Shown here piece by piece: positions 1,531 to 50,961 of a stretch of DNA of 64,000 nucleotides; the first letter of the stretch is position 1, and each line of letters starts with the position of its first letter. The notes beneath the pieces were generated by a model that ran no database searches, was not told where the DNA came from, and saw nothing but the letters and a program-made list of their open reading frames with translations. The stretch comes from Symbiodinium natans (lineage: Eukaryota; Sar; Dinophyceae; Suessiales; Symbiodiniaceae), in the NCBI GenBank assembly GCA_905221605.1, contig CAJNDS010001802.1:359922-423921 (forward strand), in the 5' to 3' direction. Made by a program: the position numbers and the translations under genes.

Positions 1531-3078
1531 GAGGTGTTCTCGGAGCGCTGCTTGCTGCAGAGGTGGCGGCTCAAGGCTCTGAAGACATGCAGACACTGCA
1601 GCTGTCGCTTTGGGCTGGCCCTTTTTTTGGGAAAACCTTAGGGAGCCTCCGGGTCTGGGGCGCGGCCTGGGGTTTTCTTTGGGCAGTTGAACCTTGAGAC
1701 GTGTGCAGGTGGCCTACGATGGCTCCGGGTTCCGGGGCTGGCAGCCGTTGGGTGTCGAAGGTGCGCGAGAACATGTCCAGACATTTGTTTGAGCTTGTGT
1801 GTGTTTTTTGGGAATTATTCCCTCACCCCAAACTTGAGACTTAAACACGTTAATCCCTGGACCCTTGAAGTTTTGAGGGGAAGTCCTCTGCTGCACAGTC
1901 CCCGGCCTCGCAGTGAGCGTGGCTTACATCGCTCTTTGTTTTCTGGGCCTACGTTGGCCAGCGGAGCCTCTTTGGAAGATGTTCGTAGTCCCAGCTCATC
2001 TCTCACTCTTCTGCTCTCCTCTCTATGTCTGTGTTTTGTTGTGGCAATTCGAAGAGGATGCAGCGTTCACACATATGGACTCTACAGACTCGCATGTCAA
2101 TGTTAGCCCCTCGTTGCATGTGGCGTTGTTTAAGAGGTTTCGCGAGGTTTGCTTTTGGAATTCATGTATCAGGGCCTTAGGCTCTTGATGCTCTATGTAT
2201 CACATTCCTTCCACACAGCATCGGCATCACCACAGGCGCGCGGACGGTGCATCGCACACTGGCTGCTGCTTTGATGGCCTCGCATCCTTTGCACAGTGCT
2301 GCGGCGACACTTCAGAGATTGCTCTAAGGCTGATTGACATAGACAATACGATGTCGTGCCTGGGCCCGAAGCTCTAGACCCGAAACATCCTAAACGTCCG
2401 AAAGACCTCCTTGAACAAAGCAAGGCTTTCAGCATGTGCGCGCCTTTTTGTCCCAAGTGGTCATATTCCAACTTCCGACCCCAAAACGGCAGGTGGCATG
2501 CGTATTTCAACTAACCATCTTTGAGATTGAACGAGTGCTGTGGCTTTGATTTTGCACAAGTTTGGGGCATCTTCAGCCGTTTTTGCAAAATTTCCCGTCA
2601 TGTCCGACAGCTCTGTGCATGTTGCTGTCGGAAATCGTGCTCCACGCCACCCCTCGGCCGCTGAGTCTGCGTCAAAGAGCTTTATGCCATTGCTTGGGGT
2701 GTATGCCGGCATACTCACGAGCCTCGCACGCCCTTGACTGATAAGGCCGGCTCCGGCAGGCTCCTGTGCTGGTGGGCTGTTCACGCACGGATCGGGGTGT
2801 GCACGCGGAGGCTTGGGTCATTGGGCAGAGCTTCTAAAGTTTTCGGGTCTGTGTGAGTGTGAGGGAGATTGGTGTAGAGTGTTAGGGTTTCTGGGGGTTT
2901 GAGTGCGAAGAGAATTCGAGGTACATGACGTGGCGCATGGGTTCGAGACGAGGCCCCGAAAACCCTTAAACCGTCAAACCCCAGAAACCCCCAAAAATCG
3001 AAAAAGCCCTAAACCTTAAACCCTAAACCTTAAAACCCTAAACCTTAAACCCTCAACCTCCAACCGCACCAGGGCCAG

Positions 3079-3147
3079 GTGGCGCACGTCGACCTGCTGA
3101 GCCTTCCGGACCTTGATGCGGACACCCTCAGGCACTCCCGGGGCGCG
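3079..3147 (+). CDS. Exon of unrecognised gene
   Basis: After the acceptor GGGCCAG (AG 3077-3078) the frame reads VAHVDLLSLPDLDADTLRHS with strongly G/C-ending codons, then loses coding character. It is preceded by 60 bp of CCCTAAA-type repeat (3,000-3,060). It is probably the first visible exon of the gene that continues to about 5.8 kb. No family is recognised. Confidence 0.45.
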
Positions 3148-5564: not shown

Positions 5565-5645
5565 ACCCTAAACCCTAAACCCTAAACCCCAAACCCTAAA
5601 CCTTAAACCCTAAACCCTGAACCCTGAACCCTGAACCCTACACTG
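5565..5645. repeat. CCCTAAA telomere-like repeats
   Basis: About ten CCCTAAA/CCCTGAA units in C-rich orientation, immediately upstream of the 5.67 kb exon. A TTTAGGG-orientation run follows that exon at 5,805-5,838. Confidence 0.9.
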
Positions 5646-5665
5646 CAAACGCCCGACAGCTGCAG

Positions 5666-5748
5666 GATGGCTCGGGTTGCGGTTTCTGCACTTGTGGCCG
5701 GCGCACGCGGTGTCATCGACCCTGCAGACCTCAGCGACGCCGGGCACC
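5666..5748 (+). CDS. Exon, unrecognised gene
   Basis: Acceptor GACAGCTGCAG (AG 5664-5665), then MARVAVSALVAGARGVIDPA followed by DLSDAGHP in one frame with a clear preference for G/C third bases. It is flanked by CCCTAAA repeats before and TTTAGGG repeats after. It could be the last visible exon of the 3.0-5.8 kb gene. Confidence 0.5.
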
Positions 5749-5804
5749 CCGGGGTTTTCTGGGGGTTTCAGGGAGGCGCAGCTCCGACAGGTGTCTCCAA
5801 TGTT

Positions 5805-5838
5805 TTAGGGTTTAGGGTTTAGGGTTTAGGGTTTAGGT
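5805..5838. repeat. TTTAGGG repeats, G-rich on + strand
   Basis: Five consecutive TTTAGGG units, opposite in orientation to the run at 5,565, so the two could pair across the 5.67 kb exon. The stretch 5,850-7,550 holds no exon I can support; a possible phrase WLFAAASYQDWLRLLTD (6,945-7,010) after a TGCTGCAG acceptor is too ambiguous to call. Confidence 0.85.
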
Positions 5839-7970: not shown

Positions 7971-9279
7971 TCTGTGGCAGTGTATTCACTGATGCAGGTT
8001 CGGGGAAGCGCTCGGATGTGCTAGGATGAACATGTTGCTGGTGCTGGACTGTTGAGGGTTGCAATGAAGCCCCCCTGCAGGCTGGCTTTGCCTTGAAGAC
8101 TGGTTCTTCTCCGGCTTTGCTGGGCGCTACGTGTCGGGGCCCGGGACCTCCACGGACAGGAGTATGGTTGGACGGACGTTAGGATGGCGGCCGTTTTGTG
8201 CAGTTTCTCGAACCCTCCAAAAGAAGCGAAAGCCCAAGGCTAACATACAACCGACCGAAGCACGATAGCCCCAAGCCCTACCAGCAGCCCGGAATGACGG
8301 AATTCTGAAACCGAGGACCCAAGGCCCAAACCTTTTTGGCTCTCCAGGTCAACCTCCGACGGGGTGGGCCAGGGCGCCTGCTTGCCGCCGCTGCTGTTGG
8401 GCTGCTGGGCCTTCAATATGTTTTGTGTTTTAAGCTGCTTGGAGGTTAGTGGGGGGGGTTCATGGGAGCCAGTTGTCTCCTTCCCAACCCCTCCTCTGCT
8501 GCTGAATGCAGACGTTGGCTGAAGAACTGGCGGGGAGCCTATACACGCGAATATGAGCTTTGGCAGCTTTGGGGTGTAAGCTCTTAGCCCTGGCACTAAG
8601 ACTGCCTCACCTCGTACAGGAGAAAAGTAAGCCAGCAGCTAGGGAACAAAGGGGCAGTCACACCTGAGACAGAAGGCCCACCACACCTAGGAAGCAACCC
8701 AGACCTTTGCCGGAGAGGAACAATAGCCAGCAAACAGCATCCACACCTAGAAGAATCTCAGACCCCTGCTGCACCCACCTTGTGTCATTAGAGATGTGAG
8801 CGGAGAGTGGTGAGACTTCAAGGCGGTCAGGCCTGGAGCCGCGATTGATCTTGGGCATGTCATTCACCATAGCCGCAAGGTCGTGATGCATCTGCCTCGT
8901 CTAAAGACCCCTTCCGCTTCTAGAATTGCTCGGGTTGGTTTCGAGAGCTGGGAAGGTTATGCCTTAGGGGTTTCGTTCATATACTCCCAGCACAGAACCC
9001 CTACATTGCCCAAGTTCTCTGAGGAAGCTTCCCCCCACATGCCTACTTGCACGTTCCGTAGAGGGAATCTGAAGTTCCACATCCCCCATCCCCTCAAACC
9101 CCAAACGTACTGGAAGGCTCTTCATAAGGAAGCAGGAAGGTACCCCATCTAGTCGCCATGCGAGTCTTAAATCCTACGCCTCCGACTGAGAACCCGCGAA
9201 CGCCCGAGAGCCCCCGCGGAGCACCTTTTTTAAGACAGTGCCGATGAGAGTTTGGATCCCTTGAGTTGCTTTGGGGTTT

Positions 9280-9350
9280 GGGGTTTAGGGTCTGGGGTTT
9301 GGGGTTTGGTTTAGGGGTTAGGGTTTAGGGTTTAGTGGTCAAGGTTTGGG
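9280..9350. repeat. TTTAGGG/TTTGGGG degenerate repeats
   Basis: G-rich telomere-like units (ggggtttgggg, gggtttagggtttag). Confidence 0.85.
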
Positions 9351-9578
9351 GTTTAAGGTTTAGGACACTTCAGCTTCAGGTGATGAGGGTCCCTGGCCAT
9401 CCGAGGGCGTCCTCACACAGAGGCGGGGTCAATTCTGGGACTCCGAGCCAGGGGAGCTTGTTTACGTTGCGATCCTTTGAATTCCGAAGCCTTGAACCCC
9501 AAGAAGGCCGAATCCCGAAGCCCCAAGAAGCTCCAATGCCCTAAGGCTTGTAGCACCCCGTTCTTTGGATCATGGCAG

Positions 9579-9652
9579 GCTTGTGAAGCAGTACGGCAAG
9601 CAGTTCGCGGCCGAGGTTTTCATGGCCCACAGGCCAGTCTTCGCGCATGGGG
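9579..9652 (+). CDS. Exon, unrecognised (LVKQYGKQFAAEVF)
   Basis: Acceptor GGATCATGGCAG, then phase-2 frame LVKQYGKQFAAEVFMAHRPV, FAHG, with strong G/C third bases. It lies 490 bp before the first GH5 exon recognised and could be its upstream exon or belong to a separate gene. I do not recognise the sequence. Confidence 0.5.
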
Positions 9653-10137
9653 ATGGGGTTGTTCCAATTTGGCCCTGACATGGTGGTGTGCTGCTTTTCC
9701 TCAGAGTTTAGTCAGTCTGCATCCTGGACCAGAATGCGTATCAATTTAGTGAAAATTCGTGGCGGGATGAAGTATCTCTTCCTGATAGTTCCAGGAATCG
9801 CGAATCGAATCTGCCACCCCAAACGCTCTGGCATGCACCTTCCTTGTTTCATGCCCACACAGAGGCGGCAAGGGCTCACTTCCATGAAAATTGACTGGTG
9901 ACCAGGAATGACTTCATCGGACCGACTGACCTCCAGGCATGCGGGATGGAACCAAACGAAATTCCCAGCTCTGTTTCATTAAAGCAGAATCGTCAGGAAG
10001 CCTCGAATTGTCGCCGCAGCCTGTGTGCAGCCATCGGTGGCGCAACGAGAGACCGCACCCCGAAAAGCTACGTTTGGCCATGTAACACCATAGTTCTACT
10101 GGTGACGCAACAACTGGTGACGCAACAGCTGTTGCAG

Positions 10138-10240
10138 CTTGTTTGCCTTCGTCATGTCGCTGTTCGAGGCCATGAAGAAGATCGGCATCAAGGTGGTCAG
10201 AATCCCTATTACCTGGACTCTCTTCGCAGATGCCCTCGCT
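10138..10240 (+). CDS. GH5 exon: strand with VRIPITW
   Basis: Reads LFAFVMSLFEAMKKIGIKVV then RIPITWTLFADALA. 'G-x-K-x-VRIPxTW' is the hallmark N-terminal GH5 barrel segment; the Arg is normally an active-site residue. Acceptor CAGCTGTTGCAG, GT donor at 10241. Confidence 0.75.
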
Positions 10241-13200
10241 GTTGTTGTCGCTCGGCAGTGTTCCCCTCCGGGAATTTAACATCCGAGGTCTCTAAAGGGG
10301 CTATATGGGGCTGTTGCATCTGCAGGTTCCCAATCTACTTTCCTCAACTGCACTGCGATGTCATAGTCGAAAAGCTATCAATGAAATTCTAGAGTAAATG
10401 CGAACCGCTGGCCCAGGGTGAGGGGCTCATTGGTGCTACTTTTTAATTCCGCAACGCCAGCGAGAAAACCTAGTTCTCTGCCCACGAAGCTGGTTGTGGC
10501 AGCCCTCCCTAAACCCTAAAAACCCTAAACACCCTAAACCATCTGAGGACAAGAAGGTGTATGGCTCGCACGACCCTATCAAGGACACCGTCATTGCAGC
10601 TGGGTTGCAAATTGATCGCAGTGTGGAGTCGGCATCTTGATGTGAAGGAAAATGATTCATATACCAATGAATAAACTGATCATAGTAATATACTAATTCA
10701 TATACTAATTAAGATACTAAGTAGTATGCTGCTACTATATTTTCTGATTTTCCTAATTTGTTAATGTACTTGTTAATATACCGACTAATATACCGATTAC
10801 TGTACTGATCTTAGAGCCGCCTGCCAGGTGCCAGATCCCTACTACACCAAGGACTCGGGAGCTCTGTCGCATGGGGGCTCAGAGTTTGAGGAGTCCACGG
10901 CTTCTAGGGATGCTTAGAGGCAGCCATATACCCTGTGCATGCAAATCTGAAATCCTGGCAGACGCTTCAAGATTCTCGCGCTTGTAGGTTTTGGGGTGTA
11001 GAGATGCTGATAGCGTCACGTCCCCAAAACAGTTAAACGCAGCAGCCGACACCATGAACCGCATGAGATCTATGGACCGTGATGAGCAAAGCTGATCTGC
11101 CTTAAGCAAGGAAAGCCAAACGAAAAAGACCTGAACCCCCAATCCCTACAGGCCTGGCTCCAAACTTGGAGAGCTTTTCAGAGCCCTTAGTAACCTGGAA
11201 GCCCTCAAAGCCACCCGTAAAGATCCTAAGAACCCTACTCAAGAAAGAGACCCACTTATAACCCCCAGACCCCTGCAACCGGCGAGAACATCTCCTACGC
11301 GACCATCCCGCGCAGCCTCCTCGAGGGCCTTTTCATCCAGGTGGGCTTTTCTAGTTCGTCGGTATGCGTCTTTTTCTGCTTCGGGTGCGAGGGGAACTGA
11401 GTGAGGGTGGGTGCAAGGGTCTGTGGTTTGGGTGTGAATGTAAGGGTTTAGGGGACTTCGGATTTTGGGAAGGCTGCTTTTGCTTGTGAGGTCTCTTGGG
11501 GTGTTTTGCCCAGCACAGCGCCTGGCAGGCCTTGGAATCGTCTTCAGGGTTCACCCAGTGTTGACCCCCAGCCCTATCTGAGCTACTGGACAGCGCAAGG
11601 CGCCAGTGCCTCTGAACCAGGGGATGCAGGATGGACATGGAAATCCCTTGGGCATTGAAGACTGGCAGCGTGGTGTTACATCCACGCCTCTTTCTTCGAC
11701 TGAGCAAAAGGCTCCCCCGTTTTGGCAGAATATCCACTGTGGTGGAACATCCGTAAAATTCAACCTGTATTGAGGAATACTCCCGCTTCCTGACTGCCTG
11801 CAAAGCAAGTTGTCGCGTGATTGTCGTCAGGGTCAACGCTGTGTCATGGGCTCAAACAACGACAGACGCAGTACTGCGCTCCCCTCTGTATGCCACATGT
11901 GCCCCAATTGCAGCCTCCTACGTCTGTACTGCAAGCCTAGACCCATACGTCAGCCACCTTGAATCCTTAAGCATCACAGCCCCCCTGGGCTCAGGGCAAC
12001 AAGCTTGGCCTCAAGTTCCTGCTGGCCACTTGGGGCAGCTCAGAGGGTCTTCCCCCCCCCCCCCCCCCCGGGCTTTTTGGAAAGGAAACGCTCGCACCTT
12101 TACAGTAAGGTGCTGGTTCCCTGAAACTTCCAAACACTTTCAAGCGCCCCCTGCACCGAGGATCTTCATGCCTTTCCGGGTGGATCCTCTGATGGCGCCA
12201 CGCCCCGGGAAGTTTGGCATGCTGAGGGCTTCACCTCGAACCTCTCATTTGCCCTGAGAATCAGTTCGCCCCCCCCCCCCCCCCCCCAAAGCCTTTAAAC
12301 CCCCCTAGGCGCCTTTAAGTATCCCCGTAGCCCCAACTTAAGTGCCGCCACACCCCTGAACCATGAAGCTGCAGGTTCGAGGGTTCGAATGCAGGGCTGG
12401 GGGTCTGGGGGTCGTGCTGAGGTTTAGGGTTCATGGGGGCAGGGCTTGAGGGTTTTGAGGTTGGAGGGTCTAGAGGCTTCGGGTTTAATTATGGTTTAGG
12501 GCTCAAGATTTCGGACTTGGTTCGGATCTGTCATGGCAGGCAGAGTGAGCTGTTTCAAAGGGTTCTAGGGGTTGAGGGTTGTGTGGTTCGAGTCCTGCCT
12601 GGGCCTTTGATGCCAGTTTTTCCTCAAAGCCGGTAGAGCTCCGGACACATCTCAGGCACCTACAACGGCATCTACCCCTCGAAGCCGGTGTTCTGGAGGG
12701 AGTCTGTCCAAGCTTCTTGGCTTTCGACCCCGCCGAGGGTCCAGGGCTGGGGGTTCGAGGGCCCGGTTAGGATTTTTTCAGGGAGGTGGAGCGACTGTCG
12801 GCATCTTGCGAAGGGTTGCTGGTAGCTGACGAGCGGTTGTGGTTCATGCAGGGCTCCGTTGACGGACTCTCAGGGCTCCTTGGTTTCAAGATCCTTTCAT
12901 GCTTGAGGGTTTCCATGTTTGGTCTAGGACAGTTTGAGGTGGGCGGTTTCCCCCCTGGTGCGCCTGAAGACATCATGCTTGGGGTTTGCTATTGGTGTGC
13001 TGCCCCGGCACTTGGACACAATTTCCGAAGTGCCCGCAGATTTCTTTTGGATTTCTTTCCGGGTGTCCGCTGATTCCCCTGTGAGGCTTCTCAATTTCCA
13101 GCAATCCTTCATGGGCCCGGGGCCCTTAAGGCCTATCCCGAAACTCCTCTAAGCCCCTAAACCCTCAGGCACCTTGCAGTAGCCAGCCCACCACTCAATG

Positions 13201-38555: not shown

Positions 38556-38640
38556 TTTCCGAAATAAGGGGTACCTTATTGGGCCCTTGCAAAAAGGACA
38601 AGGGTCCCCTTCATTGTGGGTCTAAATTAGGGGTCGCTTG
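38556..38640 (+). mobile_element. Short inverted-repeat element, family B, copy 5
   Basis: ggtttccgaaataaggggta, ccttattgggcccttgcaaa ... gggtccccttc; matches copies at 16.4 and 49.0 kb. Confidence 0.5.
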
Positions 38641-38967
38641 TTTGGATTGGAGAGCTGGGGGGCTTTCGCCGTGGTGCTTCGCGGGCGTAAGGGGCTTGGG
38701 GGTTCGGGGACAGAGCTCCTTCAGGGCACCCCTACGCGGTGCGGAGTATGCATGAGCCTGACAGTCTACGGAAAACCCCCGAATCAGAAATCAACCCTAA
38801 GACCCTCGAACCCGAAAACCTAGGGGCCCTAAGCAATTCCCTGAAAGGAACCTTGTGAGGTTCCTCATACCCGAATTCCTTGCCAAGACAAACCTTCAAC
38901 CACCCCAAACCGCGAGCCCTAAACCCTAGACCCCAAACCCTAAACCCGATGTAAACCAACAACAAGT

Positions 38968-39036
38968 CGAGGAGGAACCAGCTCCTGGCGGCCTCGGCGG
39001 AGCAGGTCTGGGCGATGCGCCGGGACCCGAGCAAGG
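38968..39036 (+). CDS. Exon (SRRNQLLAASAEQVWAMRRD)
   Basis: After CCAACAACAAG the frame reads SRRNQLLAASAEQVWAMRRD, PSK. CCCTAAA-type repeats precede it and GGGTTT-type follow. Opens the 38.9-43.2 kb gene as far as I can see; family not recognised. Confidence 0.5.
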
Positions 39037-39079
39037 GGCTTTGGGTTTTTTTGGGGTTCAAGGGTTTGAGGGTTTTGGG

Positions 39080-39178
39080 TTGGGATGTTCCCCCCTAAAC
39101 TAGCAGTGCTTAGTAGGGATTATACTAGGGGGTACTAGAATCCCTGCTAAGGACTGCTAGTATAAGGCGGAACTTCCC
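39080..39178. mobile_element. Palindromic MITE-like element, family A, copy 2
   Basis: TTGGGATGTTCCCCCCTAAA, CTAGCAGTGCTTAG ... CTAAGGACTGCTAGTATAAG, GCGGAACTTCCC; nearly complete hairpin. Confidence 0.7.
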
Positions 39179-39497
39179 GAGCTTAAGGTTTTTTTGGGTT
39201 CAAGGGCTTTGGGTGCTTGCTTTTTTTGAGGGACTGTATGTTTCTGGTGCAGGGCGTTAGACTTTGGTTTAACATAAGAAGCCCTGAGGGCTTTGTATCG
39301 GCAGGGTTGCACTTTGGGTTTCAGGATTTAATTTGGGGCTTGGAGGTTTTGTATAGGGCTGCATAGTTATGGCTCTGGCGTTTCGCAGTTTGGTCGGCTT
39401 AGGATTTCGGTCTTTGACGCTCATATCTCATGATGGGCCTCCTTAAATGAAGCGGACCGTATGCACTCAGGGAAGGGAAGCCCAGGACCTCTTCATC

Positions 39498-39578
39498 TTG
39501 GGATGTTCTCCCTTATACTGCCAGTCCTTGTAGGGATGATTCTACTAAGGACTGTTAGTATAAGGGGGAACATCCCAA
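39498..39578. mobile_element. Palindromic MITE-like element, family A, copy 3
   Basis: TTGGGATGTTCTCCCTTATA, CTGCCAGTCCTTGTAGG ... CTAAGGACTGTTAGTATAAG, GGGGAACATCCCAA. The cleanest copy, with about 35-bp inverted arms. Only 320 bp from copy 2. Confidence 0.75.
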
Positions 39579-39642
39579 TCTTCATTCCCCTTCCTGGGTT
39601 GTTCACCACCCTGACATCCAATCCGATCTTGTCTGCCACCAG

Positions 39643-39680
39643 GTCGGCACAATTGCCTATGCCAATGTCTCTCCTCACGC
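39643..39680 (+). CDS. Possible exon (VGTIAYANVSPH)
   Basis: Acceptor CTTGTCTGCCACCAG, then VGTIAYANVSPH in phase 0. Short; same presumed gene as 38,968. Confidence 0.35.
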
Positions 39681-40008
39681 TAATCATTCATCGTAGAGCT
39701 GTCGTCAAGCAACATGCGGGGGTGACCCAGACTCAGGAAGCGCCTTCAGTCATTTTTTGGATCGTCCCCTGATATTCCCCCAGTGGCTGCGGTGAGAAGG
39801 CTCCGTAGAGAAGATTGCGTATTCCATCCTGACACAGACAAAGAGGCCCAATCTGGCAGTGTTGGTGGTCACTTTAATAAGACATGGTTTAGCACAGCGT
39901 CTTATATGACTATTCTTGATCTTACTATTATTAGTATTAGTATCATCATTATTCTAATTAGTATTAGTATGAGTTTTATGATTATGATTATTATTCTTCT
40001 TCTTGCAG

Positions 40009-40062
40009 CACTGCTGAGGCTCCGACGCGAAGAGGCGGTCCATGCAGCAGGCGCCCTTGTGA
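40009..40062 (+). CDS. Exon (LLRLRREEAVHAAGALVK)
   Basis: Excellent acceptor TTATTCTTCTTCTTGCAG, then LLRLRREEAVHAAGALVK to a GTTGTG donor (the frame otherwise stops at 40,085). Helical and basic. Confidence 0.5.
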
Positions 40063-40843
40063 AGGTTGTGACAAGGAACTCGTGACAAGGAACTCACGTT
40101 GGGCTCTGTGCAGATCGCTTCAAGAGTTGCCAGGCGGAACGCTGGCAACGAGACAACGACAGTATTCTCCTTTACTTCGTCATGGAACGTCTTGCGCCCA
40201 ATGTGAGGGCAATGAAATGCCTTGACATGTACAGGCTTAAGGATCTTAAGGACTTAGAGCCGTCTGGGTGTTACGGCACAAAGCCCAGAACCGAAGTTAT
40301 AAGAAATTCGCAAGTCCCTCAACACTCGAAGCCCCCAGACTGAGGCTGGAATGCTTCTGCTGCACAAAGTATGCGACAGAATGCCCAGGGACTGAGGAGC
40401 TTCGGTTGCAATGGCACCCTAAGCATTGGAAACATCATTGCTCTTCGGTCTTGAGCTTTGATATTATTGTTGCAAATGTTACAACCCTTTGAGCTATTCC
40501 GTTTTTGTCGATCCTGAACACTTAACACAGGCACTGAAGTCCTAAACCCCAAAGTACCTGCTCCATCCTAGATCCCCTAAACGCCCTAGCCCCGCCGTCC
40601 TTCGATTGCTGTGCTTTGCGGCGCGTGAGCCAAGGAAGATGGAGGACTGGCAGCTTGTGTTTCTGAGGCTTCCCTCAGGTTTTAGGGCTGAGGTTTGCAG
40701 CATTTTATTTTGTTTTTGGCGGGGGGTCTCCACCCTCGAAACAGGTTCTACAAGATGCGAGCAGGATGTGGGGGGTGGAGAGGGATGCCCTGTTGTATGG
40801 AGATCATTGTGTTCTCAGCCTCTCGGCCGATTCTCTTCCGCAG

Positions 40844-40900
40844 CTGCTGCAGCGGTAGACAGGGCGGTCGCTCATGGCACGAAGTATGACCCGTATGCAG
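40844..40900 (+). CDS. Exon (AAAVDRAVAHGTKYDPYA)
   Basis: Acceptor GATTCTCTTCCGCAG, phase 1, AAAVDRAVAHGTKYDPYA, with TTTAGGG-type sequence after it (41,000). Same presumed gene. Confidence 0.45.
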
Positions 40901-41244
40901 GATGGGATGCTAGACGATCCGCAAGTCCACCGTTAGACCAAGACGACTCTTGATGAGATCGGTACAAATGCAACGACTTCCGGACCTTTCAAGCTTCGAA
41001 GGGTTTAGGGTTTAAGGGTTCAGGGTGTCGCTATGCGCCATCCTACCGCCCTCGGTCCCGCTTCTGTCGCACAAAGCGAGAGTCGAGGTTCATCAGCTTC
41101 AAAATGCCTAGCCCTTGAGCCCCGAAAACTCTCGGATACCCACCCTTTCCAGAACCCCCCCCCCCCCCGAACACCCAGGAAGCCAAACCTCCCACACGCC
41201 AAGCCTCTTACACGCTGATTCTTCAGCTGTCTTGGGCTCCTTAT

Positions 41245-41409
41245 GATCGCCATGGTCCGCGCCAAGCTACGCCGGTCTGCGCTGGGCCTGGCCCGGTCCT
41301 CCGTTTCCTGCCGCCCCCTGCCTTCTTTTGGGGGATTAGGGGCTGCCGGGGCTTGGGAGCTTTACAGGCTTGACATTGGGAGCTATGCCCGAGGCCGTTG
41401 TTGTTAACT
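41245..41409 (+). CDS. Possible small ORF/exon
   Basis: ATG-initiated 54-codon frame: MIAMVRAKLRRSALGLARSS, VSCRPLPSFGGLGAAGAWEL, YRLDIGSYARGRCC, TAA. Protein-like but without splice evidence; may be chance. 41,420-42,780 otherwise holds no firm exon (weak candidates near 41,870 and 42,660). Confidence 0.25.
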
Positions 41410-42788
41410 ACTGTGAATGTGTGTGACGTTATATGCACAGACATGCAGACATGCTCAAGTATGAAATCGTAGGTACGCAGGACACGAAAAGACGGACAAC
41501 CAAGTAAAGCTGGAACCTGCCCCTTCGGTACTGATGTCTTCAGAGTTTTGGAGGGGTTTAGGGCTTAAAGCCCCAAACCCGAAAGCTGCATATCACCTTT
41601 TGACGCTGAGGATCGCAAAGCCTCTGGCGGTGGCGCTTCCACTTGGCGTGTGCAGGCCCAGGGTTCATAGTCAGGGCTTCGCGCGGGATTGGGCAGGTGC
41701 AGGGTTCTAAGATATTTGGGCTTCAGAAAGTTGGGGTTTGCGGTCCAGGACGTAGGGTTACCCCAATTAGGGTTACGGCTGTGGGTTTCGGGATGTCTGG
41801 GTGTTGTGAGGTGGGCCTTCAGGTCTAGAGTCTAGAGTTTGCCGATGGGATGTTTTTTCTGGGTTGAGGCTTTAAAGGCTTCTGAGTGCGTGGAAGTACC
41901 CTATGATAGAGCGGAGAAGCTCTGCCGTTTTTTGTCGCTTGATTTCGGATGTGCCGGGTCGTGGAGGATGAGTTTGCCTGACTTGATGGACACTATGGCT
42001 TCCTGTAACAGGGATTGTAACCTGACACCCTACACCTGTGTGTTCGCCTACAGGGCCTGAGCTTTCCTGTAGGACACTGAATATTATCGGGCCCATCCAA
42101 GCAAGTGGCACCCCGGACCCCGGATCTTGAGACGGCAGGCAGCAAGCAGTGCTGGACCACCTGACAAGAAGTACAGCAAGGGTCATGATCTTCAGAGCAG
42201 CCTGTGTTTTCCCAACGCCTTATAGGGCCCCAAAGCCCCCAAAGCCAGGGAAGTGGGGTTGCGTCCTTGGTTGCGGAACAGGCTTTTGCTCCTTCTTGGT
42301 GCCCCTACGCTGCTCCGACGGCGCACGAAGGCAAGGCATGGTTGGGAGATCTCGAGGTTCGACGCTAGCAGAGGTAGCCGCGCCTTGTAATTCGCGGAGG
42401 TCAGACCCTTGTTTTAGTATCTGCGCTGTGTGTCATCCTCGTCCTCATCATCGTCCTCAGCGGCTAAGCTGAATTCTGGTAAGGTAGAACTACACTAAAA
42501 GAAGGCATTGAGCATCCATGCCCCCCAGCCACCCTCATTCAAAACCGACATGCCTGGCATGTCAAGCAGGACCTTCTTCACAGCAGCTCCGTTTCAGGCG
42601 CGAGCCCGAAATCCAGGCTTCTTGGCAACGGAGTATAGGATTGTGCTTGTTGTTAGAGAAGGGTTGGGCAAATAAGGCGGTAATGAGAGCCTTACGCGGC
42701 ATAATTGTGAAAGCGGCCCAGTTACTACAGAACATGTCGTCAACCATGCGACCACTGGACTGCCCTGTCTGAGGCTCTGCGCCCACAG

Positions 42789-42838
42789 CGCGACGCTTGG
42801 TCAACGAAGCAGGCTTCGAGGCCCTGGGCATGAAAGCA
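42789..42838 (+). CDS. Exon (RRLVNEAGFEALGMKAR)
   Basis: Acceptor GCGCCCACAG, then RRLVNEAGFEALGMKAR with G/C-ending codons; end uncertain. Penultimate visible exon of the 38.9-43.2 kb gene. Confidence 0.5.
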
Positions 42839-43137
42839 CGGGCCACCACCCCAAACAAGCTGAGGGTTCGGCTTGGACTTCCCCACAATCCTTTGATCCC
42901 AAGGCCCAATATAGCTTATTCTGCTCACCATGAGCCACAAAGCGTCCCAGATCAAGTGCTCAGCCACCATCTGCGAACTCCCGGTTCCCAAAAGACCTCC
43001 CCGACCTTCAATCCCAGGATTTAGCTTCTTCCCCCAAGACCCTCTTTGGGTGCCTGTGCTAGTAATTAGGGTACCCCCCCCCCTCCAATTTTGAACCCTC
43101 AACCTTGAAGAAACCCCACCACCCTGAAAACTGCCAG

Positions 43138-43236
43138 GTGGGTGTCATGATGTCTCCCGAAGAAGCAGACCGACTGGGTCTCAAACCTTTCGGAGATGGC
43201 GGGGCTGAGAACGAGACGTCGCCGTGCCGGGGCTAA
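43138..43236 (+). CDS. Terminal exon (VGVMMSPEEADRLGLKPF...)
   Basis: Acceptor GAAAACTGCCAG, then VGVMMSPEEADRLGLKPFGD, GGAENETSPCRG and TAA (43234-43236). Good coding composition. Upstream intron end is C-rich; downstream sequence becomes GGGTTTAGG-like. Family not recognised. Confidence 0.6.
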   Translation: MGVMMSPEEADRLGLKPFGDGGAENETSPCRG

Positions 43237-43453
43237 CAGCGGAGTCCAGCCTGTTGGGTTTAGGATTTATCGGGCTTAGGGCCAGGGGTTTAGGCTATTT
43301 GGGTATTTTAGGTTGGTATTTCCAGGGTGTTTTTGGGGGTTTTTGTGGTTTGGGGTTTGCTTTGGGCTTGGAGGGTTTGGACGTGTCGGGTTCGAGCTTT
43401 CTTTAGGGTTTTGAGGCTTCGAAAACCCTCAAACTCTCAACCAACCTGATTCC

Positions 43454-43556
43454 TTGGGATGTTCCCCTTCTACTAACAGTCCTTAACAGGGATCATAGTA
43501 CCCCCTTACTATACTCCCCAAAAAAGGGCTGTTGGCAGAAGGGGGAACGTCCCAAC
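43454..43556. mobile_element. Palindromic MITE-like element, family A, copy 4
   Basis: TTGGGATGTTCCCCTTCTAC, TAACAGTCCTTAACAGG ... GGGCTGTTGGCAGAAGGGGG, AACGTCCCAA; lies 220 bp after a stop codon. Confidence 0.7.
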
Positions 43557-43827
43557 TGCCTCCCGTCAAGCCGAGGCGGCGGCCGAAATTCTACACGCAC
43601 GGCCCCTGCCGCTCTCCTGCGGCCTCTCAGTTTGTTGTGCCTCTCGGCTGCTTCTAGGAGCACATGCCTCGCAGCCTAGACGAGATATAAGTATAGGGTG
43701 AAAAGTAGGGTAGCTATACTTATAGCTTTATTAAGGATACGTATAGCCCTACTTCTAACTACCCATGAACCTCCAAGCAGTCTGCAGGTAAGAAAGCCCG
43801 GAATTGCGCGACGCGGGCTTTCTTCAG

Positions 43828-43915
43828 GTCCTGCGCGGGCTTCGACGATGCAGACGAGGCCGAGCAGCGAAGAATCGCTGCCGAGGCGACGGAGAAGATG
43901 AGGAGCAACGGCTTC
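43828..43915 (+). CDS. PhyH-like exon 1 seen: acidic helix
   Basis: Acceptor GCTTTCTTCAG; CAGFDDADEAEQRRIAAEAT, EKMRSNGF, to a GC donor (GGCTTC|GCCACT). The last 17 bases plus donor are duplicated 104 bp downstream (44,003-44,035). Confidence 0.6.
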
Positions 43916-45081
43916 GCCACTTGGTGGGGTTTAGGGTTTAGGGTTTCGGGTTTGGGGTTTAGGATTTCGGGTTTAGGGTTCAGGGTTTAGGGTTTAGGGA
44001 TCTGAGGAGCAACGGCTTCGCCGCTTGGTGGGGTTCTTGCTGAGAAGGGGGAATGTTCATTTTCAGTTCTTTCTTCCCAAAATCGTGGTCCCCAAATCCT
44101 CTTCCTAAATCCTATGCATTTGCATTAGGACTTCGCAAATAAGATTTAAGCCCTGCCCGGGGGGGGGGGGAACTAAGAACTCCGCTTAGGATTTAGGGAT
44201 CCGTTTGTCTTAAGACCTTCAGAACAGGATTGAGGGACTAAGATTTGGAATCTCATCGTTGGCCAATATGATTTTGCCTTCGTAATGTCGGGACTTTCCC
44301 CTTGAGCAAGGAAGCGAAAAAAGCAAAGTCTTCTGTTTAGCCTTTGGAGAACTTAAAGGTTGAAGTTTGCAGATGCCGATGTGCGCATACCGATCGTTGA
44401 CCTTTTTTTTTAGGGCCCAAGACGCCAATTTCAGGATTAAAATTCTTAAGATTCTCAAGAAGAGAATTGAAGATTGAAGACTGAAGATTCTTGGGAAACT
44501 CTTGGGAGAATTCTTCGATTTTCATCTTGGGCGCCTGTCGCGTACTAAGGTTCTTTCGACCCAATAACTTCAAGACGATAATTGAAGGCACTCTTGGGCA
44601 GTGCCCCATGAAGCTTAATCTTCAGTTTCAAGATTAAATTCTTGAGATTCTTAGGTTTCTTGGGAGGTTTTTAGTTCTTGGGTGGAAGCTGTCTAAAACA
44701 CATGAAGCTTGGGGGTACCCTAATCTGTTATGTATATGTACAACATGAAGTATTATGTTTTGATATTATACAGATATTATGCTAGCCCTAAACCCTCGGC
44801 CTAAGTGTGAGATCCCGCTCAGCATCTTAAGGTGGTGCTCGAGAGCCTCTTCCCACGGGAGTGGGTCACCAAGCTCGAGGCAGAGGCCGCTTCGTCCGGG
44901 CCCTCAGATTTGGTTTTAAGAGGTCCCAGGATTCGGGGTTTTTGCAGGGTTTTTGCAGGGTTTCTGGGTTGTGTAGCGATTTGCTTGCTGTACTCGATAA
45001 TATCGAGTACTCTATATTATAGAGGCTACAGCCGGCTTGGGTCTGCCCTGATTGTGTCGTGTGGCCGCACTTGCTCTTTGT

Positions 45082-45120
<39 letters not shown>

Positions 45121-48100
45121 TTGCCCGTATGTGGGGCCTGCCAGCAAAGAGACAGGAGCCTCGCGCAGAATCAAGACTAGTCTGTGTAGTTTCATCTTGA
45201 GAAAGAGCTTTTGGAATGCTACTTGAGGCTGCTTGAAACAGTCTAAGCCGCAAGCACCAGGGCCAAACAACCCATTCCCTTGTACCTAGCCCGAGCTCCA
45301 AACTCCTCAAGTCTTGCACGGGAGGTTGTCTAAATTATGGCCCTTTGGCGTTCCTGTAAATATACGGAGCCGCGGAACCACGTTTATGTATGTATGTATG
45401 TATGTATGTATGTATGTATGTATGTATGTATGTATGTATGTATGTATGTATGTATGTATGTGTATACATACACACAAAAAATTTGTGGAGGGTGACAAGC
45501 AGAGGGAAATTGACACCAACGCGCGTAGAGGTAATTATGTGTTCGTCTGGGGCTAATAGAAAACATTTAACCCGGAACAAACCCGCCCTGACCCTTACAA
45601 CCCTTAACCCCCATAAACCCCATGAACCCTATCGTTGCCCTGTTTTTTGTTGAATCCTAAAACTCTAGACCTCAAACACTAAACAGACTAACCCTTGACC
45701 CTATATAAACCCATGAACCCTAAAAACCCTCTAGACTCTAAACCCTTGATTTCGATGAGCCCGACAAGCGTTGTAAACCCTAAGCCTTGAGGTTTCTAGA
45801 CCTGCCCCAGCCGGGCTTGGTCCCACAGCCACTGCGAGCCGGCCGAACTGCCCCACGGCTCGAAAGGGTTTTGGGTTGAAATGCCGAACCCTAACCCCCA
45901 AGCCCTAAGCCTAAAACCCAAAACCCCTAGAATTTGGATAGAATTTGGAGTTCAGGATTGTTCTTGAGGAGTTGGGGGTTGGTGGGGTTGGGGGGGGGGG
46001 GGGGGGGGGGGGCGTTATTCTGGGGGCATTGGCTTGTGAGCCTGTGCTTTACGGGCTTGTGCGTCTCGGGTGTGGTGGAAGTGTCAGTCTTGGCATCTCA
46101 GTTTAGGGTCGGGGTTCAGGATACTTTCTTGAAATGCTCTGAGCTCTTGCAAAACAGGTTCTGGAGGTTGCCTGAAATGACTGGCAAACCTCCCTCCGCA
46201 GCATCGCCAGCACCCTACACCCTAAAGGCCCGAAACCCTACACTCTAAACCCTGAACCCTAAACCCTAAAGGCCCGAAACCCTACACCCTAAACCCTGAA
46301 CCCTAAACCCCAAACCCCAAGAGGAGGGTCATCTCTCCTTCACGGCTCCATGGGCCAGCGACTGGCTGCTGACTCTCGGCGCAGAGAAGAAAAACATCTA
46401 GCGCTTCGGACTTAGGTTTGGGGACTTTTTTTGCAGATTCCAAGGGTAATGTAGGGGCCATATTAGGAGTATATGAAGGGAAACCTTTAAGGGTACAACC
46501 TTAGAACGACCAGTCCTGCCAGCACAGGGTACGGAACCTCCGAGTACCAATGACCAAACCTTAAGAAGTCAGCCCCGAACCCTGACCCTGACTCCTTCCA
46601 TGCGCAATCCCGTAGATATGCCTGCATGATGGGGAACCCCCCTCAGTTCTCATCCCCAACATTCTCAACCTTCTTCCTCCATGCCATGCAAACACACTGA
46701 GGAGGAACGAGCTCGTCCTGGAGGTTCGGACGGGTCGGTCTCAGCGCTGAGGTTAAGGGCCTTGGGTGTTAGTAGTTACTTTGCTTCGGGGCTTGGGGCG
46801 TTGAGGCGGATGTAAGGTGGAAGTAGCATAGCTTGCCCAAGCATAGTTGTACGGAAGTACATATCAGGGAGGGGAGGGGCTGCGCAGCGGGGGAATCGCA
46901 CTTTGGGATCTGCTGCCAGCAGTCCTTTGGGTTGTGGCAGAAAGTGCCTCAAGCGTCAGCGTCCGCCAGAGCTCGTGAGTGAGTGCATTGAGAGCGACAT
47001 GCTACGCCCACACTGGGGCTTAGCCTGTTTTGATGCAAATTCTAGTCGCTGATGTGAAATTCTCCACAGGAGCGTCCAAGGTGTGATGTGCTCCAAAAAT
47101 TTTACCCTCAGCCCCTAAGCCGCACCCCCCACAAGGTGGTCGCCGGCTACATGAATAACAATCTAGCAGCAGGCCGCACTCAGGACTCTTGGACTGCAGG
47201 GAGGGTGTAGGGGCACGGTCGGACCTGGAAAGCCGAGCTTCAAACTACCTGAATATCTCAGCTGACCCAGCCAAACCCCTGAAGCCCTCGGCCATCTTAG
47301 GTCCTAAATCCTACAGCCGCAGCTCGAACGCCCGCTCCCTTCCTTCCCACCAAAACATCAGGAGCCCTAAAGCCGCAAACCCTGCAGCCCCCCTCTTAAG
47401 GATGAGCAGCAGTGGGGCCTGGTTCAGTGGCTCACCTCCGGGGCCTCCCTCGACTGGTTCTCGTCCCTTGGCCTCAACCCTCCTGAGGCCTCAGCTTGGT
47501 TGCGGGTTCAGGGTTTAGGGTTTCGGCCGTTGGCGGTTGATTGGGGCTGAGGAGGGTTGAAGGTTTGGGTTGTAGGGGATTCTTGAGGGTTGATATGGGG
47601 TTTCAAAAGGGGTCTGAGGCTGAGGGTTGGGTCCTCACCAGCACTTCTTGAGCAACCAGGACCCCAACCCCAAAGCCCAAACTCCCTACAGCCCTACATC
47701 CCAATTCCTGAAGCCCCTCAGCGCAACCCCCAAAAAGCCCCAAATCCCCAAAAAATCCTGAAGCATGAGGATGCCTGAGTGGGGCCCGAAGGCCGGGCAC
47801 TTGCTGGAGAAGCCCCCGCCAGGGTGCAGCGACGTAGGCGGGAACGGGGTTTCAGGAAGATGGGGGCTTGGGGGTTCTGGATTTAGAGGTCACGGCTGTC
47901 AGCTAGGGCGGGTTTGGGTGCAGTGTTTCGGGTTTTTAGGGTCAGGTTTCAGGGATCATCGCGCTCCGGCTATGTCGGGGTGACGCGTGGAAGCACGATG
48001 TCGCGAAATGTTGCTTACGGGGGCTGGGTTTGGGGTGGGGGAACAAATCATATTGTCAACGGTGGAAGTGCCCTTGACATAGGATACACATTTTTCGAAG

Positions 48101-50210
48101 GTAAGGGACCAAGAGTTCATTCAGGCTTTAGCCGCAGCCTGTGGGTGGAAGCTTTTGGCCACCATCTGCCTGGACCACCTTGCAAGTCCTACTGTGCCCT
48201 TCGGAAGCTTAGGGGTACATCTTCCCCTTTGGGTTCTGGAGTTCTCGTTGGACCTACACAGTTGCAAAGGGGTATTACTCTACTCTGGTTTATGGGTAAC
48301 AGCTTAACAGTGAAACCCTAAACTCAAAGCCTTGACCGAATTGGCAGTTCCCTGTCAACCCTCAACCCTAAGGTGTAAAGTCGAAGCCCTGAATCCTAAA
48401 CTCTCCAAAGTCCCAGACCACACCCAGAAGCCTTGCATGGCAGTGGCCCCGATGAGGTACCCATGGGGACATCGGCCCCTTCTTTGGCCGAATATCGCTC
48501 ATCCGAACACCACCAGGTTCCATGCAGAGGGAGGGGGTTTAAGGGCTTTTTTCAGAAGGTTTGGGGGGCTGCGGGGGGAGGGGGTGGGGGGGGGTGGCTG
48601 GGTTGTTGTTGGCTTTCAGAATTTTGTGTTTGGGGAGTTACTGGTAATTCTTGACTGCTTGTATTATCTAATTTCTTGGTGTATGGGTGTAAGCGACACG
48701 GCGCTCTTGCATCGGCTCTGCAGGGGGTTTAGGGGCACCTGAAGTCGCCAGAACTTCCAGAAGCAGAACATTTCGCGCACAGCTAGCACCTTGATTCTAA
48801 AGCCACCGCGGAAGAGCAGTCGGCTTTTTGCCATCTCCTGCCTTGGAAGAAGCTTCTCAGCTTCAGACTTCAGACGGGATAGAACAGCAGAGGGCTCGGC
48901 CCCCTGAGGCTCTGAGCCCCAGAAGCACCACCGGGACATTAACTTTCCGGGCCCTGCCGCGCAGGTGACGGCGCAGGCACAAAATTCCAACGTAGGGGTC
49001 TACGAAAATGAGGACCCCGAATAGAGACCCCCCAAAGAGTAGGATTCCCTTATAATCAGGACGCGATGAAGGTATCCCGAATTTCGGAAAGCCCCATGTC
49101 AGTCAAAGAGCTGTGGCAGAGTGTGGGTGCTTCTGTCGTAGTCTTGAGTTTCTTGAATCTGCACATTGGTACGACAGTACCATCTGGTTGACCGCTGAGA
49201 TGCGTGGAAGATGCACTTTGTGGGCTTCCTGCACGCTTTCCCACAGACACGCAGACTTGGCGTTCCTCATTCGCGCCCTACCAATCACCACCCGATTTTT
49301 TCTTCTTCGTGTAGCCCTTGGTGTTCAAGAAACGAAAAGAAAGAGTGCATCGAGGCTGCAGCGGCATTTTTTGGAGATTCATGAGAATGAGAATGATAAG
49401 GCATTCCACGAACAAAGGCTTCAAGCCCGAAGGTCTGAACCCAAAAATAACAAAACATCTTTTGGCCCAACCGCAGGTCGCCCTCACGCAGCTCCAGGCA
49501 AACAACGGGCCGCCGCAGCCCAAGAATCCTGGGTGTAGGGTTAAGTGTGCCCTGAACCCTGCAAGCAGGACCCCACCCCTAAACCTTAAACCCTAAACCC
49601 TAAACCCTAAAACCACCGAGGCTGGCCTACGTCCCCGGCTCCCACCGCATGCTCACTCCCGGCTTTGAAGTGGTTGCCGCGCCTCCGCTTGGGTCGGCGA
49701 CGTGGCGCAGAAGTGCTGTAACTTTCCACAAAGCTCCACCCAAAACGAGAGGCCCAAATCTCGCCGCCCTATAAGGTCCTACAGCGACCAGACACGTTGA
49801 GCATCATTGAGCCTTCACAAGCCCTCCCCAAACCCGAGCTCTGGGACTTTGGCAACCCTGAGCTCGCCGCAACAGCACTTTCGGCAAGGTCGTGCTGTAC
49901 GATTCTTTCTGTGAGCATCGTGGCATCGAACATCACGGCAACAAAGACCGGCCACTTGCCCGAGATCATGGCCCAGGGACCCGAAGCCTGAACCCCTCCC
50001 AAACCCCAAGGACCTTAACCCTGAACAACCTAAACAACATCCCCACACCGAAGATCCTAAGCCCCTAATTAAGCCCCTGTCTTGAACCCTTAGGCCCTAA
50101 ACCCAAGCCTTTCAAGGTATGCCGTGTACTACGAGTTCGAGACCCGGGGGGTCTTCAGCGGCTACACCGCGGCGCACTTCGGCCCGGAGTCGGAGGCTCA
50201 CATGCGCGCG
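43828..50210 (+). CDS. Phytanoyl-CoA dioxygenase-like (PhyH) Fe(II)/2-oxoglutarate oxygenase gene
   Basis: Exons in order: 43828-43915, 44832-44900, 46322-46398, 47136-47169, 47401-47493, 47770-47833, gap, 49477-49514, 49621-49669, 49889-49950, 50117-50210. The N-terminal join gives MRSNGF|VVLESLFPREWVTK, the usual PhyH opening. The C-terminal joins give VALTQLQANNGPP|LAYVPGSH, then VVLYDSFCEHRGIEHHGNKD|RYAVYYEFETRG: PGSH, the distal metal-ligand His and the 2-oxoglutarate-binding Arg are where PhyH proteins have them. Phases match at 49514/49621 and 49950/50117, both GC donors. The proximal H-x-D motif was not found, so an exon in 47.9-49.4 kb is missing from the model, or the middle exons belong elsewhere. 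Substrate unknown. Confidence 0.6.
43926..44000. repeat. TTTAGGG tract at an intron start
   Basis: About ten TTTAGGG/TTTCGGG units lying between the two copies of the duplicated exon end. Confidence 0.9.
44832..44900 (+). CDS. PhyH-like exon: VVLESLFPREWVTKLEAEAA
   Basis: Acceptor TCAGCATCTTAAG, phase 0, VVLESLFPREWVTKLEAEAA, SSG. G/T-rich intron start (gggtttttgcaggg) follows. Confidence 0.65.
45081..45118. repeat. (GT)n microsatellite
   Basis: tgtgtgagtgtg then uninterrupted GT. Translates as VCVCV / HTHTH artefacts. Confidence 0.9.
45385..45462. repeat. (ATGT)n microsatellite
   Basis: About 19 ATGT units; YVCM and HTYI open frames on the two strands come from this. Confidence 0.95.
46322..46398 (+). 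CDS. Exon (GHLSFTAPWASDWLLTLGAE)
   Basis: Follows a C-rich telomere-like intron end (46,230-46,320); reads GHLSFTAPWASDWLLTLGAE, KKNI, then TAG. The end is not placed on a GT/GC donor. Assigned to the PhyH-like gene by order only. Confidence 0.5.
47136..47493 (+). CDS. Two exons: VVAGYMNNNLAA and DEQQWGLVQWLTSG
   Basis: 47136-47169 after CCCACAAG reads VVAGYMNNNLA to a GC donor. 47401-47493 after CTCTTAAG reads DEQQWGLVQWLTSGASLDWF, SSLGLNPPEAS, to a GC donor (TCA|GCTTGG). The intron between ends in CCCTAAA-like sequence; GGGTTTAGGG follows the second exon. Confidence 0.55.
47770..47833 (+). CDS. Exon (MPEWGPKAGHLLEKPPPGCSD)
   Basis: Acceptor AAGCATGAG, donor GAC|GTAGGC; reads MPEWGPKAGHLLEKPPPGCS, D. 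The upstream intron end is a C/A-rich tract (ccccaaccccaaagccc), the downstream start G/T-rich (ggggtttcagg). Confidence 0.5.
49002..49096 (-). mobile_element. Short inverted-repeat element, family B, copy 6
   Basis: tacgaaaatgaggacccc ... agtaggattccc ... ggtatcccgaatttcggaaa; reverse-complement relative of 16,440. 47,840-49,470 otherwise shows no firm exon. Confidence 0.6.
49477..49669 (+). CDS. PhyH-like exons: NNGPP and LAYVPGSH
   Basis: 49477-49514 reads VALTQLQANNGPP and ends phase 2 at GC. 49621-49669 starts phase 2 after ACCGAG and reads LAYVPGSHRMLTPGFE. 'ENGP...PGSH' is the PhyH core strand pair. The 106-bp intron ends in four CCCTAAA units. Confidence 0.65.
49889..50210 (+). CDS. 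PhyH-like exons: CEHRG...NKDR and RYAVYYEFETRG
   Basis: 49889-49950 reads VVLYDSFCEHRGIEHHGNKD plus two bases. 50117-50210 completes the Arg codon and continues YAVYYEFETRGVFSGYTAAH, FGPESEAHMRAAA. The His and Arg match the distal Fe ligand and 2-oxoglutarate anchor of the family. Confidence 0.65.
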
Positions 50211-50961
50211 GCCGCCTCAGGGTTTAGAGCTTGAGGGGGCACAAGGGGTTTTAGGGGCTGTTAGAGGGGCTGTTCGAGGGGCTGTTCGAGGGGCTTTTAG
50301 GGTTTTCTTTGGGAGCTTTTTAGGGCTGATGCATGCCTTGCTCTCCGGCCTCTGACTCTGGCGGGCAACGTAACCCACGGCATCTTGCCAAAATAGACAT
50401 GACGAGCACCCTTCGCGCAGTAGTAGTAGGGGTGTGATTGCCATGATGACTACGACGACGACTCCTACTACCATTGCCTCTGCTACTGGGCCATCCTTCC
50501 AGGCCTTCCGAGACTTCGTGGACCCAGCACTCCGTGACTGGGTGCAGCGAGTCCGTGCTTAGGTACCCAAGCTTAGGGAGGCTTGCTACTCGGCTACTTG
50601 TTGCTTTCACGTAGTGGTGGGTCTACTAGTTGAGATATTGGGCATGGAATGTTACAAGCCCACGGGTCCACAAGTGCATAAGTAGCAAGCCCAGTCGACT
50701 TCTGTTCCGCGGGGGCCATGCGTGAACAAATCAGTCAGATGGCGTGACCCCGCCACGGCATCTATGCGGTCAGTCGCCGCACGTTTCAGCTCAGGAGGAA
50801 CAAAAGACCACTTGCATGTGGTTGCCAGAATCAGTCAATTCATCACGCCTGTCAAGCTGCTCGTTCCGTGTCAAGCAGTTCTGGTACATGAATCATCATT
50901 TCAGTCCATGCATGCATACGAAGTGCAGCTGCAGCGACCATAATTGGGGCCCCATCTGCAG

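Follow-up and report, generated by a model that had tools for sequence, protein, structure and literature searches.

Splice-anchored G/T-to-C/A polarity and telomere-like tracts in introns from a 64-kb window of the dinoflagellate Symbiodinium natans

Fish introns reportedly carry a GT tract near their start and an AC tract near their end. The relevant section of a review describes introns of fish and lamprey as structured by AC- and GT-rich tracts (PMC7404189). Among dinoflagellates, the introner elements of Amoebophrya have inverted repeats (PMC7789003), and inverted-repeat introners are said to be enriched in Prorocentrum cordatum (P. cordatum; PMC10666404). In the passages cited from these two papers, introners are defined by inverted repeats of 8-20 nt and direct repeats of 3-5 nt at their very ends. 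The introners of Symbiodinium microadriaticum are described, in the cited part of PMC9860276, as having TIRs and 4-bp TSDs. In euglenids, according to passages of PMC4770533 and PMC6221363, the ends of nonconventional introns are brought together and conserved borders are absent.

The dinoflagellate telomere unit is given as TTTAGGG in the cited section of PMC11453091. In the horse, a target duplication is described for 3 of 66 loci that carry interstitial telomeric insertions, and in-register bases at the break are described as well; the same passages call a test of the splicing effect of intronic telomeric repeats interesting (PMC7215372). For the intron pattern reported here, no description was found in titles, abstracts and passages from the literature on intron telomeric repeats, dinoflagellate introners, Symbiodiniaceae introns and the S. 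natans genome, a body of text with most subscription literature outside it.

The window, by which we mean the whole 64-kb stretch of DNA that was analyzed, contains 76 copies of TTTAGGG and 72 copies of CCCTAAA, and these are strongly clustered. The introns under study belong to the following genes.

8080..21065, + strand: EXG1-like (GH5-type glucanase) gene, 30 exons found (tblastn with P0121-P0126, junction refinement)
31530..33365, + strand: protochlorophyllide reductase (POR) gene, two coding exons (protein homology)
32628-33131, + strand: POR intron, GC-AG, tract-free (homology-defined junctions)
36391..50550 (about), + strand: PhyH gene, N-terminal part plus phytanoyl-CoA dioxygenase (PF05721) domain (tblastn; Pfam on relatives)

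After splicing, the EXG1 exons give a frame that is open over 452 codons. The product is 80% identical to P0122 (EXG1 of Symbiodinium sp. CCMP2592) and, in the aligned shared residues, identical with few exceptions to the S. natans record P0121. The exceptions are two residues at the start of P0121, the junction at 14707 and one exon in which P0121 is short of 18 residues. This near-identity indicates that the source of the window is S. natans or a very close relative. The P0121 record (S. natans EXG1, 304 aa) is without the 5′ exons, the 18 internal-exon residues and the C-terminal exons that were found here via P0122; the exon total of the gene is about 30.

The best open reading frame of the window (31497-32642) is protochlorophyllide reductase, and its closest named relatives include Effrenium, Symbiodinium (symbB), Polarella and Togula. 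The PhyH gene is located 3′ of POR on the same strand (31530-50550). It is homologous to P0127 and P0131, with the phytanoyl-CoA dioxygenase domain at its end, and its N-terminal part is presumably Sfi1-like. The PhyH-domain protein P0127 of S. microadriaticum bears the name 'PORA, partial', which suggests that POR and PhyH are neighbors in that species too and were merged in the gene model. At about 37774-37791, after ...GSKRL, the counterpart of the P0131 residues LQESF, read by eye as LQEAF, is found in a different frame only, which points to a frame change or a sequencing error in the exon. Pfam searches with exon pieces of the window gave two matches, both below the cut-off, and viral contigs, scanned by pattern and by protein, contained no relative. 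The far end of the window (54223-54942, 57669-57998, 62304-63499) has long CTTCTCT-type arrays and an 87-bp unit repeated in tandem about 14 times, and the region at 54-56 kb shows an extreme strand skew (GC skew -0.45).

The exons were placed by tblastn of P0121, P0122, P0127, P0131 and P0001, and the resulting test set has 57 introns (29 in EXG1, 27 in the PhyH gene and one in POR), set by protein homology alone in one window and mainly two genes. At each junction, the candidate whose spliced peptide agreed best with the relative was taken; an AG acceptor was compulsory, and a G[TCA] donor raised the score. Motifs inside the introns, including the tracts, played no part. The median intron length is 304 (56 introns), and the mean exon length is 52 nt. 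Junctions 37274, 37792 and 40229 were dropped before counting because of a missing intervening exon or a non-G-type donor; the acceptor end of junction 37792 has a CCCTAAA array in the right-way orientation. Intron 36430-37134 was added by hand from P0131 boundaries, an addition that favors the claim, and some counts cover 56 introns and later ones 57. Junction 15530-15861 was shifted by 4 nt to 15534-15865 on the basis of P0121; the inverted-repeat, blastn, folding, skew and circular-shift analyses use the earlier form. Junction 14707-15113, where P0121 reads LVDQG, may hide a micro-exon. The counts leave aside the tracts at 3-8 kb, 26-30 kb and 34-36 kb, regions whose genes are undefined. 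Ends that belong to the same gene share some dependence, which makes the sign-test p values below optimistic.

The usual donor of introns is GTAAGT, and the donors here are unlike it. They begin with GC in 39 introns, GT in 13 and GA in five, such that 44 of the 57 are other than GT, and the acceptors are AG|G in 54/57. Position +5 is C in 33/57 and position +8 is G in 34/57, with sites such as GCCACTTGG. This mix of donors resembles the dinoflagellate figures published in the cited part of PMC10666404. Unlike the euglenid nonconventional introns, as characterized in the passages noted above, the borders here (G[CTA]...AG|G) are of the spliceosomal type.

With junctions that are blind to the tracts, the telomere-like tracts of the 57 homology-defined introns have an orientation bias relative to the splice sites, as an earlier preliminary description of this DNA had proposed. 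The first 150 nt contain 19 copies of TTTAGGG and four of CCCTAAA, and the last 150 nt five and 30, respectively (the end region being 150 nt, or half the intron, from the splice site). For the exact heptamer, 18 ends have the predicted sign and five are wrong-way (p=0.011), and for a broader motif 40 ends are right-way and 15 wrong-way (p=0.001). When the intron map was shifted circularly around the genic region, 0 of 430 shifts reached the observed sum by any of four motif measures. Dinucleotide shuffles give about three heptamers at each type of end, compared to 17 and 21 observed (56 introns), and the tracts are therefore not a by-product of composition. CCCTAAA is located in the second half of the intron in 33 of 37 cases, close to the acceptor (distance quartiles 29, 51 and 120 nt, n=37). 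TTTAGGG is in the first half in 29 of 45 cases, and its placement is loose (quartiles 72, 244 and 328 nt from the donor). The arrays cited in this comparison are listed here, together with two counter-examples.

17599..17654, + strand: TTTAGGG array 3′ of the exon at 17536, on the donor side of intron 17569-17828
10507..10538, + strand: CCCTAAA array, acceptor side of intron 10247-10547
46220..46314, + strand: CCCTAAA array, acceptor side of intron 45850-46323
49550..49611, + strand: CCCTAAA array, acceptor side of intron 49512-49620
38903..38944, + strand: CCCTAAA array before the exon at about 38967, acceptor outside the counted set
5566..5831, + strand: CCCTAAA and TTTAGGG arrays around the putative exon at 5666
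34576..34853, + strand: CCCTAAA and TTTAGGG arrays around the putative exon at 34635
9270..9351, + strand: counter-example, TTTAGGG array at the acceptor end of intron 8401-9379
14718..14766, + strand: counter-example, CCCTAAA units at the donor end of intron 14707-15113

The five wrong-way ends for the exact heptamer are the acceptors of introns 8401-9379, 13903-14307 and 41313-41610 and the donors of introns 14707-15113 and 39019-40018. Exon 14622-14706, with CCCTAAA-type sequence on both sides (14564-14605 and 14718-14766), is the clearest break of the rule. The exceptions noted previously (after 14706 and at 12.2-14.3 kb) are real by motif counts per intron. The preliminary description had also listed 12 exons preceded by CCCTAAA and followed by TTTAGGG. 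Nine of them are on protein-matched stretches, and the arrangement holds on both sides in five of the nine only (17536, 36391, 38968, 44832 and 47401); at 43828, 46322, 47770 and 49621 the motif is on one side alone (broad motif count, by eye). The protein match of exon 36391 is weak (E=0.036), and the peptide at 34635 has no match in the aligned relatives; the listed exons at 4437 and 5666 are putative.

At the held-out ends, which do not flank the exons of that list, the bias is not significant for the exact heptamer (10 versus 5, p=0.3), and is 30 versus 15 for the broad motif (p=0.036). The held-out ends of EXG1 show no heptamer bias (4 versus 3), with 14 versus 10 for the broad motif. Moreover, an expected-side heptamer (TTTAGGG at the donor and/or CCCTAAA at the acceptor) is present in 15 of the 57 introns and neither is present in 42. 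Both occur in the same intron in 3/57, compared to 1.35 expected from the margins. The broad motif is found at both ends of 8/56 introns (7.5 expected) and on both sides of 11 exons (7.8 expected). The idea that one intron begins TTTAGGG-like and ends CCCTAAA-like is not supported as a paired property of these introns.

A broader asymmetry is found at the same ends. The firm finding of this study is a splice-anchored polarity from G/T to C/A, and the telomere-like arrays mostly follow it. For GGG and CCC, 79 ends are right-way and 25 wrong-way (57 introns, p=1.1e-7), and with the telomere-like units masked the numbers are 76 and 23 (p=8.5e-8). The polarity for GGTT and AACC is 62 versus 18 ends. 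At the held-out ends, GGG/CCC gives 66 versus 24, with 37 versus 15 in EXG1 and 28 versus 8 in the PhyH gene. Because the GGG/CCC bias survives masking and holds in the held-out ends and in both genes, the tracts are part of this broader polarity, and they are its most visible form. From the donor onwards the GC skew runs at +0.11 to +0.22, whereas the final 150 nt have -0.26 to -0.09 and the exons 0.00. Deeper in from the acceptor the skew is near zero or positive, and the sense strand of the introns is G/T-rich away from the acceptor. AAACC, CCTAA and AACCC are among the top 5-mers on the acceptor side. Motifs for RNA G-quadruplexes are few (8/57 introns in the donor-side region, 3/57 in the acceptor-side region). 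The polarity was also considered as a guide of tract orientation or insertion, and this is not supported: after masking, the local polarity matches the orientation of the tract at 17 of 23 ends, a rate similar to that of tract-free ends with the expected polarity (63 of 90).

The complementary tracts raise the matter of pairing between the two ends of an intron. The best case is the following intron.

36430..37134, + strand: 705-nt intron with TTTAGGG arrays in the 5′ part and CCCTAAA arrays in the 3′ part (boundaries set by hand from P0131)

Its G-type arrays are at 36692-36785 and more, and its C-type arrays are at 36987-37115. The intron is predicted to fold as one hairpin, with the outermost pair (36438-37131) joining the splice sites, a minimum free energy (MFE) of -346.5 kcal/mol (z -15.6, 10 shuffles) and 133 pairs spanning more than 200 nt. 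The picture of complementary ends in the preliminary description fits this intron well. Higher-order tandem repeats of CCCTAAG/CCCTAAA-like units are located just 5′ of exons at 36255-36379 and 46212-46314 (40 and 44 bp), showing local expansion of acceptor-side tracts.

Across the set, folding of the intron RNAs, which had been suggested as a check, covered introns up to 1000 nt and left out two longer ones. The mean number of predicted end-to-end pairs is 21.0, compared to 12.9 in whole-intron dinucleotide shuffles (55 introns, p=0.005), and nine of the 55 are above the shuffle mean by more than 2 sd. However, shuffles that keep the regional composition give 18.1 pairs (p=0.097), and the MFE of the whole introns is unremarkable (median z -0.12, with 13% below -2). 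Duplexes between the donor and acceptor ends of the same intron have a mean of -56.4 kcal/mol, versus -53.6 for mismatched ends (50 introns, leaving out seven under 120 nt; p=0.026), and without intron 36430-37134 the p value is 0.074. Cognate duplexes have a mean of -52.2 kcal/mol once each of their ends is shuffled, and non-genic pairs give -46.9. Donor-donor duplexes (mean -57.8) are as strong as donor-acceptor ones, and acceptor-acceptor duplexes have a mean of -41.3 kcal/mol. Duplexes across 52 exons have a mean of -51.2, the top six being -90 to -81 kcal/mol. The same sequences could equally pair across short exons, which would loop the exon out.

Since cognate ends hardly beat mismatched ones, and donor-donor and cross-exon duplexes are comparable, the predicted closeness of the ends comes mainly from composition and polarity. 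A shared inverted repeat of at least 8 nt within 150 nt is found in 22/57 introns (15.9 +/- 3.3 for mismatched ends). The earlier proposal of end pairing thus holds for the excess over whole-intron shuffles and for intron 36430-37134, but not for a telomere-specific pairing system: the tracts have no clear co-occurrence, the bias survives masking and the cognate advantage is slight. The predicted folds support a telomere-specific reading for single introns only.

The comparison with fish introns follows the same lines. Both have complementary low-complexity tracts, with letter classes and a reported order that are alike. The fish tracts are simple repeats for which an effect on splicing is reported, whereas here there is a general polarity, with heptamers in a minority of introns and mostly at one end. 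In the set as a whole, an intron does not generally carry complementary tracts at its start and its end; single introns such as 36430-37134 do.

The tracts themselves are period-7 tandem arrays of the CCCTAAA/TTTAGGG type at internal sites, as in interstitial telomeric sequences, and are probably interstitial telomeric insertions. Information on their origin is provided by one array in the PhyH gene, located 14 nt inside intron 43916-44831.

43899..43929, + strand: 31-bp direct repeat, left copy, across the exon end and donor
43930..43999, + strand: TTTAGGG-type array
44003..44033, + strand: right copy of the 31-bp direct repeat

The two copies are identical at 30 of 31 positions, and 0 of 100 shuffles were as good. 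The left copy ends in GGGG and is directly followed by TTTAGGG, in the telomere register. A long direct repeat is found at one of the 27 arrays only. Among the other 26, six have flanking repeats of 8-19 bp (p<=0.02, 100 shuffles), three of these six being tract-like sequence, and 20 have none. With one strong case among 27, a long target duplication was rejected as a general feature of the arrays. Telomerase-type insertion is supported at this one locus (43899-44033), and we infer it for the other arrays. The short arrays and, at this one locus, the direct target duplication and the register at the break are shared with the short interstitial telomeric sequences of mammals described in PMC7215372. 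The differences are the TTTAGGG unit and the orientation bias relative to splice sites, which is not reported in the cited passages of that paper.

We favor, at roughly even chances, a reading in which a splice-anchored compositional polarity is combined with interstitial telomeric insertions and is kept by splicing, with no dedicated telomere-like pairing system. The introns of this window are polar, with a G/T-rich donor side and a C/A-rich region that covers about 150 nt next to the acceptor. The interstitial telomeric sequences would most likely have been added by telomerase-type repair of DNA breaks in the introns and retained mainly in the orientation that matches the polarity, a bias visible in the counts and possibly a result of selection. 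The polarity would probably be maintained by splicing, through G-runs near the weak GC/GT/GA donors and C-runs near the acceptors. Such runs also give the two ends a broad complementarity, and the G/U-rich starts may pair with the C/A-rich ends without sequence-specific partners, as the predicted pairing excess suggests, and this pairing may affect splicing. In a further proposal, which we consider improbable, telomere-type sequence would have turned into a splicing aid in a dinoflagellate lineage, with break-repair inserts of TTTAGGG repeats kept mainly in the orientation that favors G/U-rich donor ends and C/A-rich acceptor ends, and generic G/U-C/A pairing holding introns with weak GC/GA donors closed.

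Several other explanations bear on the same observations. The donor G-runs could act as linear signals, as intronic enhancers, with the C-rich acceptor side as a pyrimidine-like tract, the telomere-like repeats supplying the runs and pairing being unneeded. This possibility, which we hold to be rather doubtful, agrees with a polarity that is present with and without tracts, with the closeness of CCCTAAA to the acceptors and with AAACC, CCTAA and AACCC as top 5-mers. It is at odds with the lack of T enrichment on the acceptor side and with the frequency of CTNAY, which is not enriched at -60..-15 (3.9 per kb, versus 5.6 per kb at -160..-100); by the same frequency, the CTAA of CCCTAAA was rejected as a branch site. 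The model of the preliminary description, in which the splice sites of an intron are brought close by pre-mRNA pairing between its complementary telomere-like tracts, as reported for the GT- and AC-rich tracts of fish introns, draws on the hairpin of intron 36430-37134 (-346.5 kcal/mol, z -15.6), on the 9/55 introns with excess pairing and on the slightly better cognate ends (p=0.026). We regard it as unlikely, given both tracts in 3/57 introns versus 1.35 expected, a cognate p of 0.074 without the best intron, equally strong cross-exon duplexes and inverted repeats in 22/57 versus 15.9 +/- 3.3. A neutral strand asymmetry, linked to transcription or mutation and combined with expansion by slippage, would need no role in splicing and would account for sense-strand introns that are G/T-rich away from the acceptor. 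However, a uniform transcriptional bias would not flip sign in the last 150 nt, and the exon skew is 0.00; this explanation also has a low probability.

Broken ends that were healed by telomerase and rejoined would give a left end with TTTAGGG and a right end with CCCTAAA, making the G-then-C order automatic within an intron. Such healing would produce the head-to-head order in intron 36430-37134 and fits the target duplication at 43899-44033, but it leaves unexplained the lone tracts near the matching splice site and the polarity after masking, and is quite unlikely as the general explanation. Introner elements with terminal inverted repeats, with ends that are telomere-like by chance, are the least probable reading. 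Dinoflagellate introners with inverted repeats are described in passages of PMC7789003, PMC10666404 and PMC9860276. The introns here are from a dinoflagellate as well, and they share with those of Amoebophrya and Prorocentrum an inverted complementarity that, in the cited passages, is proposed to join exon borders. On the other hand, inverted repeats of at least 8 nt within 30 nt of both ends are found in 2/57 introns, at the level of the mismatched controls (1.1); the terminal inverted-repeat part of the definition is absent in 55/57, and the tracts are mostly one-ended. As for direct repeats of 3-5 nt, AG|G borders would often produce such short repeats by chance. In addition, all-against-all blastn of the 57 introns found similarity limited to the tracts and some short repeats, with no intron family. 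The introners of S. microadriaticum, as described in the cited part of PMC9860276, are alike in genus and in insertion origin, and they form sequence families, of which there is none among the 57 introns. The absent terminal inverted repeats and shared families disfavor introners, although one window can miss families. A short repeat around GGGATTATACTAGGGGGTACTAGAATCCC (39080-39153) is common to introns 17891-19144 and 43224-43575, in both orientations (blastn), and is perhaps a small palindromic mobile element.

The splice-anchored polarity addresses an open question, the recognition of splice sites where donors are other than GT in 44 of 57 introns. Two main genes in one window cannot establish its generality. 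Because the polarity is visible in as few as 57 introns, a cheap genome-wide test is available of whether the composition or pairing of intron ends compensates for weak splice signals. The same test would also examine splicing as a filter on telomeric insertions, a question that the mammalian work, in the passages cited, left open (PMC7215372).
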